Assembly (NCBI RefSeq): GCF_024054535.1
Contig: NZ_JAMXLV010000019.1
Span: 1-64,000, forward strand
Source of the DNA: Thermococcus alcaliphilus
Lineage (GTDB): Archaea; Methanobacteriota_B; Thermococci; Thermococcales; Thermococcaceae
DNA: 64,000 nucleotides
Reading direction: 5' to 3'
Below the pieces are notes generated by a model. That model made no database searches. It saw only the letters and a program-made list of their open reading frames with translations, and was not told the origin of the DNA. The translations under genes were made by a program, and so were the position numbers. Shown here in pieces: positions 4,732 through 29,976 of the stretch. The first letter of the stretch is position 1; each line of letters starts with the position of its first letter.

Positions 4732-5202
4732 ATGAAAGTGGAAGGATTTGTCGCAAGTTTAAAAAACGCTGAAACAATTGAAGAGCTCTTTGATATCCTT
4801 GAGAAGAAAGGTGCACCGATTATAGAGTTTGATGGGCAGAAAACTCTCGTAGTTGTTGAGGGGGACTTTGAGGGAAAACCATTTTGGACGGAGATAAACG
4901 GCAAAAAAGCTAACTTTGCCCTTGGAGATGCAATGTTGAACTCTGCAAGCTTTCCCTTTAAATGTAAAAAGCCCTATACAGGAGGAAACGCTATCTTTGT
5001 GAACTTCGAAAATATAGAAAGCGAGGAATTTCTGGTTGCATACAGGTCAGAGGATACTTTAAGGGCATTTCATGTGAAGGGCACAGAAGTTGAGAAAATA
5101 GATGAGACGAAATACGAGGAACTTATTCCTAAGATGCCCGAGTTCAAAGTTAAGGGCTTCTCTGAAGAGCAGATGGACATGATGGGCGCCTTCTTTGGCT
5201 AA
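4732..5202 (+). CDS. Conserved hypothetical protein, 156 aa
   Basis: I do not recognise this family. It is a soluble, slightly acidic protein with no signal peptide or membrane segment. An N-terminal helix (SLKNAETIEELFDILEKKGAP) is followed by alternating beta-strand-like segments with a CKKPYTGG turn near residue 80. ATG 4732 has a purine-rich GGAGGATTTGG leader. It overlaps the 3' end of the convergent phosphoesterase gene by 4 nt, and the coding pattern (K/E-rich, no rare codons) is native. Confidence 0.65.
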   Translation: MKVEGFVASLKNAETIEELFDILEKKGAPIIEFDGQKTLVVVEGDFEGKPFWTEINGKKANFALGDAMLNSASFPFKCKKPYTGGNAIFVNFENIESEEFLVAYRSEDTLRAFHVKGTEVEKIDETKYEELIPKMPEFKVKGFSEEQMDMMGAFFG

Positions 5203-6710
5203 GCCCATGGCACTTTTGTTTTTATTTTCCATATTCCGAGGAGTTTTCTTGATCCCCATGTTGCCTGTATTTCAAACGCCGCTATCATATCTTCATAGAT
5301 GTCTATTAAGTTGAAGGAGTTTCCAAAGGGATTTCTGTGGAGCTCCCAGCTTATTGACCCTGCGTTTATTATTGGTGTTTCTTCGACTTTTATTCCCAAT
5401 GTGTTGCCACCGTGACCGGTCAGAACTAAGTTTGCTTTTTCATCTGTTAATATCTTCAAAACATTGCCCCCATCTTCTAAAAATCCTATCTCTCTGCTTT
5501 TAGGTATTGGAATTATGTTGTGGTGCATTATTACAGCTCTGAACTTTTCTTCATGTTCCTGTAGATGTTTTCTCAAAATCTTCTGGCCTATTCTCCCAAC
5601 CACTCCTATAGGAGTCTCATATTGGGCTGAAATTATTGGAATGAATGCAAAATTCTCCATTTCCAGAATTTTTGGCTCTCCAAAATACTCTTTGAAGAGG
5701 TCGTAGCCGAGATAGGTAATGTCGTTGTGCCCGGGCACTATAATCTTCTCTGGCTTAATCTTTTCCCAGAATTCGTAAGCTTTTGCATAATATCTCTCGG
5801 TTCCGACATCTACCATGTCTCCGCAGTGTATGACTAAATCTGGTTTGTACTTCTCGTTGATAGCCTTAATTGCGTTTTTCAAAACTCTCTCTCTGAAATA
5901 AACCCTATCTGAAACATTGCTCTCGCTCATCTGGACGATTCTTAACAATCTTCTCTTTTTTGGAACAAAAATCCTTTGCTTTTTGATTTTAAACTCTCTT
6001 CTTGTGATATCTCCCGTTACCCGCTTTATACTTACCGAGATTTTTCCATCATCTTTGATTTTGATTATGTTGTAGCTGTTTACGTCACCTTTTCTGGTCT
6101 TTCTGCATGAGGTGCAGCCGGCATTTGCCACAACAAGCCCCTCAACTTTGTAGATATTGGGCACGTGCTTGTGCCCGCAGATATAAAGGTTAACATCGTG
6201 CTTTAAAAGTAAGTCCAACACATCGCCGGCATTGAATAAAACATTCCTTTCCCTCCCCGTGTCCGGTAAGGGAACTAAATGGTGGTGGGAAGCAACGATC
6301 TTGAATTTTTTGTGAGAATACTCCTCAAGCTTTTCTTTGAGCCAGTGGAATTTGTAGCCCCCTATTCTTCCATCACTTAAGTCAGGGATCGTAGAATCTA
6401 CCCATATTATGACGAGGTCGTCTTTTTCGTAAACCCCATTTAACGGGCCTATGTACTTCTCAAAGAGTTCATAACCGACGTTTCTTGCATCATGATTTCC
6501 GGGAACGACGATTAAAGGCTTCTGAATCTTTTTTAGTTCATAACTTGCTCTCTCGTATTCTTCCCTCAATCCCTCGTTTGTCACATCTCCCGTGTGAATA
6601 ACTATATCATAGTCTAGTGTATTGACTTCGTTGGCTATTAAATCGTAGGCATAGCCCTTGTAGGCTTCTCCGCTGGTTATGTGGGTGTCACTTATGTGGG
6701 CTATTTTCAT
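5199..6710 (-). CDS. Two-domain metallophosphoesterase, second domain degenerate
   Basis: Calcineurin-like phosphoesterase of about 503 residues containing two tandem domains. The first (about 1-240) keeps every metal motif: SDTH near residue 7, GDVTNEG near 41, GNHD near 71, HHH near 138 and GHKH near 177. In the second (about 255-500) the same positions read SESN, GDMVD, GHND, MHHN and GHGG, so several ligands are lost and this half is probably structural or substrate-binding. I start at ATG 6710 because GAGTGAGGGAT precedes it; a GTG at 6719 is possible but has a poor ribosome site. It follows the CBS gene on the same strand with a 5-nt gap. Substrate (nucleotide, nucleic acid or phosphodiester) is unknown. 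Confidence 0.85.
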   Translation of the reverse strand: MKIAHISDTHITSGEAYKGYAYDLIANEVNTLDYDIVIHTGDVTNEGLREEYERASYELKKIQKPLIVVPGNHDARNVGYELFEKYIGPLNGVYEKDDLVIIWVDSTIPDLSDGRIGGYKFHWLKEKLEEYSHKKFKIVASHHHLVPLPDTGRERNVLFNAGDVLDLLLKHDVNLYICGHKHVPNIYKVEGLVVANAGCTSCRKTRKGDVNSYNIIKIKDDGKISVSIKRVTGDITRREFKIKKQRIFVPKKRRLLRIVQMSESNVSDRVYFRERVLKNAIKAINEKYKPDLVIHCGDMVDVGTERYYAKAYEFWEKIKPEKIIVPGHNDITYLGYDLFKEYFGEPKILEMENFAFIPIISAQYETPIGVVGRIGQKILRKHLQEHEEKFRAVIMHHNIIPIPKSREIGFLEDGGNVLKILTDEKANLVLTGHGGNTLGIKVEETPIINAGSISWELHRNPFGNSFNLIDIYEDMIAAFEIQATWGSRKLLGIWKIKTKVPWA

Positions 6711-27426: not shown

Positions 27427-27720
27427 TTGGATAAGGAGGATATGATAAAATCAATAAGGGAGCACAGCAACTACTCTAGAGAAATTTACGATATGCACGA
27501 GGACGTTATAAACGAGGCCCTAGAACATTATGACGAGCTGAAAGAAGAATATTTAAATGACCATTCGCGTGCTAGAATCGTTAGAATCGTGATAAACGAG
27601 GATAATAATTTGCCGTTGGCCATAGAGTTCCATCGGAAGGATGATTCCTTTAAAGGCTTCAGCATAGCAATAGGCAAGCCCTATATAAAGAATGGAAAGA
27701 GCAACGGGCATCAGGACTGA
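27427..27720 (+). CDS. Small conserved protein, 97 aa
   Basis: Not recognised. An acidic helical N-terminal half (EHSNYSREIYDMHEDVINEALEHYDELKEEYL) precedes a mixed strand-helix half. The TTG at 27427 is the longest start; an ATG at 27442 has GGAGG very close and is possible. Its last codons and stop run into the base of a strong hairpin (27724-27778), so its 3' end may derive from, or overlap, the mobile-element tail on the other strand. Confidence 0.55.
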   Translation: MDKEDMIKSIREHSNYSREIYDMHEDVINEALEHYDELKEEYLNDHSRARIVRIVINEDNNLPLAIEFHRKDDSFKGFSIAIGKPYIKNGKSNGHQD

Positions 27721-28012
27721 CCTCCTTCCCGCCTTTAGCGAGAGGCTAAGCTTTAATCCCTCGCTAAGGACGGGAAGGTTTACGGGCAACTCATTCCCTA
27801 CTCCCGCTGCCGGTTTCGGTTCAGCCCGAGGGGACGGTCTCGCCCCCATTACCCCTATCCCCAAAGGGGACTTGGGGTTATCGTTTTGACAACCTTCTTC
27901 AGTTTTTGACTACCCGAGAGGACAATTTTTTGAAGGACGCCTTACGGCGTCCACTCCCCTTCAGCTTGAAGGGGACACTTAAACTCCTCGCCTCATCAGG
28001 TTCTAAGTTTGA
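27720..28012 (-). ncRNA. GC-rich hairpin cluster resembling a tnpB 3' tail with guide-RNA scaffold
   Basis: About 290 nt without a conventional gene. On the minus strand it reads, in order: a 9-bp stem with a 3-nt loop (27955-27975), a 7-bp stem closed by a GUAA (GNRA) tetraloop (27935-27952), a nested C/G stem (27851-27878) and a long hairpin with arms 27724-27742 and 27760-27778. A TATA box (CTTTATATAGTA, 28031-28042) lies about 20-30 nt upstream of the first stem. An open frame through the distal half translates as ARPSPRAEPKPAAGVG ... LSEGLKLSLSLKAGRRS, which by memory resembles the C-terminal tail of thermococcal IS605-type TnpB, whose 3' end overlaps the guide RNA. No RuvC-like body is present. 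GC content is well above the flanks, as in structured RNAs of hyperthermophiles. Hairpins and promoter are seen; the TnpB link is inference. Confidence 0.55.
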
Positions 28013-28030
28013 CATCTTCAAGCTTCTTAT

Positions 28031-28042
28031 TACTATATAAAG
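28031..28042 (-). promoter_or_regulatory. TATA box upstream of the hairpin cluster
   Basis: The minus strand reads CTTTATATAGTA. It is downstream of the stop codon of the minus-strand metalloprotease gene, so it cannot serve that gene, and no protein start with a ribosome site follows. It is the expected distance ahead of the hairpin-rich stretch. Confidence 0.5.
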
Positions 28043-28093
28043 TTTAAAAGAGTTTCGGTTCTTTAAAGGTTACCCTTCAATTACTGCACCCTC

Positions 28094-29887
28094 CTAAAGG
28101 GCAGGTTTTCTGAGAGAAAAATAAAATCCATCTTCAATGACTCTTCCGTCGTATACTTGATAGCTTACTAGATAGTATGTTGGATTTTTGTATTTTCTTG
28201 TTCCATATCTATCTGCTCCGGCGATCCATATTATATAGTTGTCTTCCCGATATGGGTTTCTTATTGCCATTATTACGGATGTAAAGGGTGAGCTGTAAGT
28301 TTTTTCGGCGAATTCAATCTCTTTTATGTTTTGATCCGTTATTAAGAACGTTCTGACGTTTTCGAATTCGGCATTTTTCTCCAAAATCCATGTTCCGTTT
28401 GAGAGCACAAATCTTAAGGGGAAGTCCTCATCCAGTTGATCCACAACTTTATTACTCAAAGGACCACCTATGAGGATCATATCCTTCTCTAAATCTTCCT
28501 TAGTTATCTCCACATCGCTCTTTATTTCGACTTTTACCTCTCCCATCCACTGAGAGTAGAACCTCTGGAGATAATCTTTAACTATTTCGGCTGTTTCTCT
28601 ATCATAATCCACACCATTTTTGTCGGGGTTCTGTGTGCCGTAAACTATGATTATTTCTCCCTCCTTCACTCCATCATCCAGTGCTCTCAATGGAGTTACC
28701 GGTACTTTTTCTTCATAAAGGGCTTTTGCTTCACTTTCAGGCACCATATGGGCCAACTCTGTTAACATATTGAAGATGTACTCCTCCAAGGGCCTGTTAT
28801 TCTCAACGGCAATCTTGGCATATTTTTTGTATAGCTTTACAACATCCTCGATCCAAAATTCTCCCCATGCTTTCTCCATCTGAAGGGAAAGCTCGGCATA
28901 GTCTTTGTTTATTCCGCTTAGGGCAAAGTACGCCCAGGCATCTGCAAAGCTTTCGTATATCATGGTTGTATCGCTCCAAAAGTGTATGTCATAGGTTGCC
29001 AAGTAAGGCATGTCCTCCTCTATGGTGTCTTCAAGGTATTTGAGAGGCTTTACTTTGTACCCGTAATACTCGTTGAGCTTGGCTGTAGTTAGGTCGTGCC
29101 CAAGTTCGTGGTATATGAACTCCAGAATCCACAATTTGTCAAATTCTGAATTGTTCACATAAACACTGTTTAGCGGAAGCCCAAAAATTGTATCCTTTGC
29201 CCTAAGAAATCCCCAGTATGTTTTGGGAGGGTTTCTTCTGACCAATGGAAGCATTCCTCCGGAGCCATAAATTACAGTCTCATTCACTTTTTCCCTAAAG
29301 CTGTGTCCATGAATGCAGACCAGATATGGAAAATGAAACTCGAAGCGAACGTTGGTCAAGTTCATATATGGTTCCATGAACTCATCTGGTGGGAGTAGAG
29401 TTATGGCAGAAGCATAAACTTCTAGGTCTTCATTGTAGTAATTCTCATGGCTCCTAAAGAATTCCATGAAGTTTGTATCTTGGGAAAACTCCCTCAGGGC
29501 GTCCACTATTTCGTCAAGCTCTTGATCCTGCCATTCAGTGTAGATCCTCTCCATCTTCGGTGGCTCTGAGAACTGCAGAAGGTACGCGTCAATGATGAAT
29601 AGCCTATAGTCCCTCTCTGGAATAGTCTTTGCATCCTTGAAATATTCCCTAAGTATCTCTACCGCCCTGTGGTTTCTGTATTTCCAAAACCAGTGTTTTA
29701 CATCGTTGATGTACCCCTCTCTATTGAGGACGAACTCATCGTGACCAAATGCAAGGTAGTAAACAATCGATAGGAGCTCTTCATTTGGGTTTATCTTTAT
29801 TAGAACACTATTCCGCTGGAACTGATACGCACTAACGTTTGGAGCCAGGAGAAAGATAAGCAGGAGTGCCAAGAGCCTGCGCTTCAT
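28094..29887 (-). CDS. Exported HELGH metalloprotease-like protein (DUF4932-like)
   Basis: About 597 residues. A signal peptide (MKRRLLALLLIFLLAPNVSA) is followed by a large helical domain with a zinc-peptidase motif YHELGHD near residue 262 and a downstream YESFADAW segment near 305 that could supply the third ligand. The C-terminal 200 residues are strand-rich with an ILIGGPLSNKVVDQL segment and an IIWIAGADRYGTR segment, reminiscent of domains found in archaeal S-layer-associated proteins. It likely acts outside the cell on proteins or the envelope. ATG 29887 is chosen because the signal peptide begins there. Confidence 0.72.
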   Translation of the reverse strand: MKRRLLALLLIFLLAPNVSAYQFQRNSVLIKINPNEELLSIVYYLAFGHDEFVLNREGYINDVKHWFWKYRNHRAVEILREYFKDAKTIPERDYRLFIIDAYLLQFSEPPKMERIYTEWQDQELDEIVDALREFSQDTNFMEFFRSHENYYNEDLEVYASAITLLPPDEFMEPYMNLTNVRFEFHFPYLVCIHGHSFREKVNETVIYGSGGMLPLVRRNPPKTYWGFLRAKDTIFGLPLNSVYVNNSEFDKLWILEFIYHELGHDLTTAKLNEYYGYKVKPLKYLEDTIEEDMPYLATYDIHFWSDTTMIYESFADAWAYFALSGINKDYAELSLQMEKAWGEFWIEDVVKLYKKYAKIAVENNRPLEEYIFNMLTELAHMVPESEAKALYEEKVPVTPLRALDDGVKEGEIIIVYGTQNPDKNGVDYDRETAEIVKDYLQRFYSQWMGEVKVEIKSDVEITKEDLEKDMILIGGPLSNKVVDQLDEDFPLRFVLSNGTWILEKNAEFENVRTFLITDQNIKEIEFAEKTYSSPFTSVIMAIRNPYREDNYIIWIAGADRYGTRKYKNPTYYLVSYQVYDGRVIEDGFYFSLRKPAL

Positions 29888-29976
29888 ATGCATCACACTA
29901 ATTTTTCATTCGATATATTTAAACTCTCTGCAAAACTTTAAAATACCATGCTCCAACTTTGTTAGGGTGACCTAAA

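Follow-up and report, generated by a model that had tools for sequence, protein, structure and literature searches.

Within the window, the 64,000-nt stretch of the Thermococcus alcaliphilus genome analysed here, the minus strand carries a complete IS200/IS605-type element of 404 nt (27717..28120), which lacks tnpB and specifies a structured RNA homologous to the tnpB omega-RNA. The preferred reading, to which a probability of roughly 0.7 is assigned, is that it belongs to a non-autonomous IS200/IS605 family, whose copies would provide a TnpB encoded elsewhere with guides directed against their own empty sites. Dozens of relatives occur in the heat-loving Thermococcaceae, and the scaffold lies under a promoter of its own; the element therefore has the appearance of a TnpB-system parasite, equipped with its own guide RNA. 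A preliminary description of the locus had named a non-autonomous element among its possibilities; this is borne out by the LE, RE and target motif (TAM) held in common with tnpB elements, by empty sites and by copies at many sites.

Ends, insertion site and neighbouring genes

Some 34 solo copies and 15 tnpB-linked ones share the LE and RE of the window element, and profiles of both ends found them paired in nearly all loci. Solo copies have a near-constant length of about 400 nt, as compared with 1440-1630 nt for the tnpB-linked ones. Intact tnpB elements of the same genome have matching ends (LE foot GAAAG, RE end TCAG). The LE hairpin (28089..28105, minus strand; CCTGCCC-TTTA-GGAGGG) is imperfect, and its foot reads GAAAA, instead of the GAAAG seen in most copies. 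The RE-terminal hairpin (27724..27778, minus strand, arms 27724-27742 and 27760-27778), equivalent to the RE stem in A2, had been described as the largest in the window, and it is indeed the strongest short-loop inverted repeat there, with the top score among ungapped repeats with loops of up to 25 nt.

In two relatives (G004 and G007) the orthologues of the adjacent 97-aa gene read CATCAGGA|GTAAAA without insert, corresponding on the minus strand to GGRTTTTAC|TCCTGATG, with nothing between the two halves. From these uninterrupted alleles it follows that the element runs from 28120 to 27717, just 3' of a TTAC (now TTAT), with no target duplication; the preliminary description had cut it short on the left, where it reaches 28120, and had not placed its right end precisely (27717). 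The TAM (28121..28124, minus strand) reads TTAC where the site is empty (G003, G004, G007 and G008), and the change to TTAT is synonymous in the overlapping protease gene (Tyr, TAC to TAT). At the orthologous site, a solo element was absent in all relatives examined. Empty sites lacking a target duplication are available for three loci, and read TTAC|TCCTGATG, TTAC|ATG and GCTTAC|TAGATAG. Two empty/filled pairs agree with that of the window element, one at TTAC|ATG, ahead of a 138-aa gene, and one at the protease 3' end, which is filled in G002 and has its empty site in the window at 28140-28180. This last position is an insertion hotspot, being also filled in G005 and G009 (loci L067/L101, L103 and L106). 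In G012, an independent mini element (L098) has inserted where the window element did, at the end of the orthologue of the 97-aa gene (3' side).

The element keeps two convergent genes apart, and provides both with new 3' ends. The element completes GAC TGA, the final codon and stop of the 97-aa gene (27427..27720, plus strand), for which no Pfam family was found, so that a protein ending in HQE* in relatives (GAG TAA) ends in HQD*. The HELGH metalloprotease-like gene (DUF4932; 28094..29896, minus strand) takes its last 27 nt or so from the element, and its product ends in GFYFSLRKPAL*, as compared with GFYS* in the frame of the empty allele. The alternative that the region is part of an intact unrelated gene is excluded; no reading frame is constant among the copies, in which the longest sense stretch free of stops ranges from 44 to 95 aa.

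At the 138-aa gene, a solo element is placed exactly between TTAC and ATG in three species (L016, positions 4836-5248, L061 and L083), and may function there as the gene's promoter or leader; in G001 (L148) the same site holds a different element. Correspondence of this site with the HgcC4/TK1679 site of T. kodakarensis was considered and found unsupported, 27 of the 30 loci of the gene family being without the element.

The RNA, its promoter and its predicted guide

The ability to fold was evaluated on the minus-strand RNA of the region, which gave z-scores of -5.9 and -6.2 against dinucleotide shuffles, none of 100 shuffles being as stable. The four minus-strand stems of the preliminary description are real, although their count was too low, since the RNA of the element forms hairpins H1-H5, P1-P4b and the RE hairpin; the reported GNRA tetraloop is found in GACGCC-GUAA-GGCGUC. 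Covariation was analysed on 32 aligned solo copies, LE excluded, by using a structure of 53 pairs. Standard pairs account for 94.2% of the total, as compared with 39-53% when the pairs are slid, a percentage favoured by the structure having been drawn partly from the consensus. The stronger measure is given by two-sided compensatory changes, which occur at 23 of the 53 pairs, in 132 cells; shuffles give 48 such cells, and sliding the structure gives 11-36.

The RNA is composed of two parts. The scaffold core (27768..27884, minus strand) scores 115.8 bits with covariance model R2 and is homologous to the last part of tnpB, sharing P1-P4b with tnpB tails. About 190 nt at the end of the intact tnpB element of the same genome (contig C22) align at 70% (E about 1e-11), and R2 picks up all tnpB tails tested, at 48-67 bits; the resemblance to a TnpB C-terminal tail, previously pointed out, is therefore true homology. 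Two features of a TnpB omega-RNA are present, a conserved RNA secondary structure and homology of the scaffold with the 3' end of tnpB and RE. The 5' domain (27908..28030, minus strand; hairpins H1-H5) is specific to solo copies; it scores 82.2 bits with model R1, shows covariation, and found no match in the 15 tnpB-linked loci. Its derivation from the tnpB coding sequence was also considered and rejected, as no profile match was obtained (best E 0.069) and R1 reached at most 13.7 bits in tnpB loci. In the window copy the scaffold is intact, and H1 is half broken (3 of 6 pairs).

In P2 and P4 the solo scaffolds are unlike those of tnpB, so that the same TnpB would not necessarily bind both. 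In two hybrid copies (L043 and L084) the 5' domain is combined with a tnpB-type scaffold that still encodes the TnpB tail, and L036 and L055 occupy one insertion site, with flanks about 100% identical and interiors only 84% alike; scaffolds thus seem to have been exchanged between copies. A homing signature looked for at L024/L025 was not present, the flanks being merely locally variable. A tnpB-like gene on contig C24 (L019) has a matching LE and is 78% identical over its first 41 aa, with only 36% identity at the C-terminus, and is possibly a chimera.

A conserved archaeal promoter lies just 5' of the first hairpin in solo copies. In the window it consists of a BRE (CGAAAC, 28057-28052) and a TATA-like TTTTAAAC (28049-28042; together 28042..28057, minus strand), and the LE alignment gives the consensus CGAAAC-YY-TTTTTAAACT or CGAAACCCTTAAATACT, about 15-25 nt ahead of a conserved TAATA that precedes the first hairpin. 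A promoter for the RNA had been proposed before; the TATATA then indicated (28039-28034) is placed just inside the conserved one. The start of the transcript is predicted near 28020-28030. That the scaffold has its own promoter is well supported by the conservation of BRE and TATA among copies, by the covariation and by the expressed HgcC relatives described in the literature.

The predicted guide is formed by the 20 nt beyond RE (TCCTGATGCCCGTTGCTCTT; 27697..27716, minus strand), and is antisense to the 97-aa gene at its 3' end. On the guide side, all 30 nt compared match the empty allele of G004, adjoining TTAC.

HgcC (RF00062) is an orphan RNA verified by northern blot. RF00062 matches cover the 3' part of the scaffold and about 12 nt past RE, in tnpB-linked as well as in solo copies. 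Solo copies other than the window one match below the cut-off; the window copy gives no match at E <= 1 and does not reach the gathering score, and an Rfam cmscan of the window region returned no relevant match. In T. kodakarensis all five HgcC RNAs are expressed, including the transposase-free HgcC4 and HgcC5 (PMC4247193). HgcC probably corresponds to the 3' half of the guide RNA of thermococcal TnpB; none of the papers searched names both HgcC and TnpB.

Family membership, mobility signals and spread

Membership in IS200/IS605 is indicated by ends common with an autonomous relative, since in G005 (L089) a single element contains LE, Y1 TnpA, TnpB and RE, and by the fixed TTAC 5' of the insertion, with no target duplication. 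At the family level, subterminal hairpins with foot guides matching the cleavage sites are also found. The RE end is TCAG in 50 of 51 copies, TTAC stands immediately to the left of 35 and the LE foot is GAAAG in 37. In IS608 the foot of the LE hairpin pairs with the target. Here, four tnpB copies with TGAC targets (L081, L087, L045, L088) have (T)CAAG or (T)CAAC in place of the GAAAG that accompanies TTAC, a change of the kind expected for IS608-like foot-target pairing; two copies (L023 and L084) break the rule.

The window copy is altered at both LE and RE feet, and these changes, together with the C-to-T change in the TAM, suggest an immobile copy. Its genome, 99% complete in 25 contigs, yielded no Y1 TnpA, and for this reason the copy is possibly no longer moving; TnpA was found in 5 of the 13 genomes of the genus. 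Apparently worn mobility signals next to intact scaffold helices are compatible with a late capture, and equally with drift.

Besides the intact tnpB 3' end on C22, the same genome contains three relatives without tnpB (on C14, 90%, and two on C16, 73% and 72%). Copies were detected in 12 of the 13 genus genomes, with 21 matches in one of them. Homologues do show the compensatory changes asked for in the preliminary description. A search with covariance models found the 5' domain (R1) in 52 of 94 Thermococcaceae genomes, from 5 of 6 genera, and the scaffold (R2) in 71 of the 94. A close TnpB (best E <= 1e-100, counted by hand) occurs in 42 of the 52 genomes with the 5' domain versus 18 of the 42 without (Fisher p = 2e-4, uncorrected for kinship). 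None of the 12 genomes lacking any TnpB match has the 5' domain, and several genomes with the domain have no close TnpB.

Single-hairpin mini elements of about 35-45 nt, in which the LE start is joined to the RE end (GAAAGCCTCGCCCTTYAGGGCGGGGAGGAGGTCAG), were observed in the same genome (C24:131311-131345 and C24:132827-132861, 1.5 kb apart and in the same orientation, and C21:13453-13487) and genus-wide. The pattern is found in 13 of 13 genus genomes, some matches being ordinary RE ends; the reversed control gave 0.

Explanations and related systems

According to the preferred reading, an ancestor would have lost tnpA and tnpB, retaining what their products recognise, namely both ends for the Y1 transposase and the omega-RNA scaffold for TnpB, and would have gained a promoter-proximal 5' domain undetectable in tnpB. 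A TnpA from elsewhere would move the element as single-stranded DNA to positions 3' of TTAC. The LE promoter would produce an RNA of about 315 nt, running through RE into the flank, the first 20 nt or so of which would serve as guide. A TnpB from elsewhere would bind this RNA and cut the empty TTAC plus guide site on sister or incoming chromosomes, and repair would copy the element back. That the RNA serves a TnpB encoded elsewhere, as had been suggested before, is plausible, given the intact TnpB with a homologous scaffold on C22. For the window guide, the candidate target is TTAC followed by TCCTGATGCCCGTTGCTC; if the mechanism holds, the G004 empty allele would be cut, because the guide matches it fully beside TTAC. 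The element would thus be a parasite of both TnpA and TnpB. Extended to the whole family, the proposal describes mobile RNA genes whose sole product would be a guide RNA dedicated to TnpB and bearing a specialised 5' domain, and which would hijack the nuclease of autonomous elements for re-homing into their own empty sites, a reading for which the odds are rated about even; the 5' domain might serve in competition for TnpB, or in processing without tnpB mRNA.

A plain MITE/PATE, with ends kept for TnpA and an RNA structure that is either baggage or a feature of single-stranded DNA transposition, without guide function, is unlikely. In its favour, tnpB-less IS605 derivatives are already known, the scaffold-free mini elements indicate that the scaffold is not needed for spread, and copies are dispersed, with few common orthologous sites. 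It accounts poorly for compensatory changes in hairpins distant from both ends (H3, P3), for the conserved promoter and near-constant length, for G-U pairs accepted at many positions, which suit RNA more than DNA, and for the expression of HgcC RNAs.

It is quite improbable that the window copy is now a captured guide RNA, used by the host with TnpB or an inactive TnpB for regulation or defence. The apparently decayed mobility signals next to intact scaffold pairing would fit, as would the copy shared by three species exactly ahead of the 138-aa gene ATG, but the guide matches the insertion site itself, which was the target compared, all relatives examined lack the element there, the TAM change is synonymous, and the 138-aa-gene site is occupied in only 3 of the 30 family loci examined. 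A dead remnant, i.e. a decayed tnpB tail without transcript, is the least credible; it would explain the alignment with the tnpB 3' end, but both ends are present, together with a 5' domain that tnpB lacks and that recurs in 52 genomes, and the covariation and family-wide conservation of structure contradict it.

If the preferred reading is true, the guide-RNA-directed retention proposed for TnpB elements is open to exploitation by protein-less elements. The orphan HgcC would also receive a likely identity, and the family could supply thermostable scaffolds for guides and, Thermococcus being genetically tractable, a natural system for testing the action of omega-RNA in trans.

MITEs and PATEs (palindrome-associated transposable elements) are tnpB-less IS605 derivatives, likewise non-autonomous, that keep only the ends; examples are treated in PMC7290912 and PMC3119063. 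The window family is like them multi-copy, with ends and without any protein gene, and differs in having an RNA gene, structured and covarying, that comprises scaffold and promoter. It combines two known kinds, MITE/PATE and omega-RNA. IS608-type IS200/IS605 elements share with it the LE and RE hairpins, the TTAC target without duplication, a scaffold overlapping the tnpB 3' end and a guide directly past RE; unlike them, the window element has no tnpA or tnpB, and has its own 5' RNA domain right behind the LE promoter. The HgcC RNAs of P. furiosus and T. kodakarensis are alike in overlapping the 3' part of the scaffold and in being expressed from transposase-free copies, and unlike in that the RF00062 model spans only about 130 nt, without the 5' domain. 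Stand-alone, trans-acting omega-RNAs of IscB are known from Ktedonobacter; they too are guide scaffolds without a nuclease gene of their own, but they serve IscB and not TnpB, and in the present family the RNA is at the same time an entire mobile element, complete with LE and RE.
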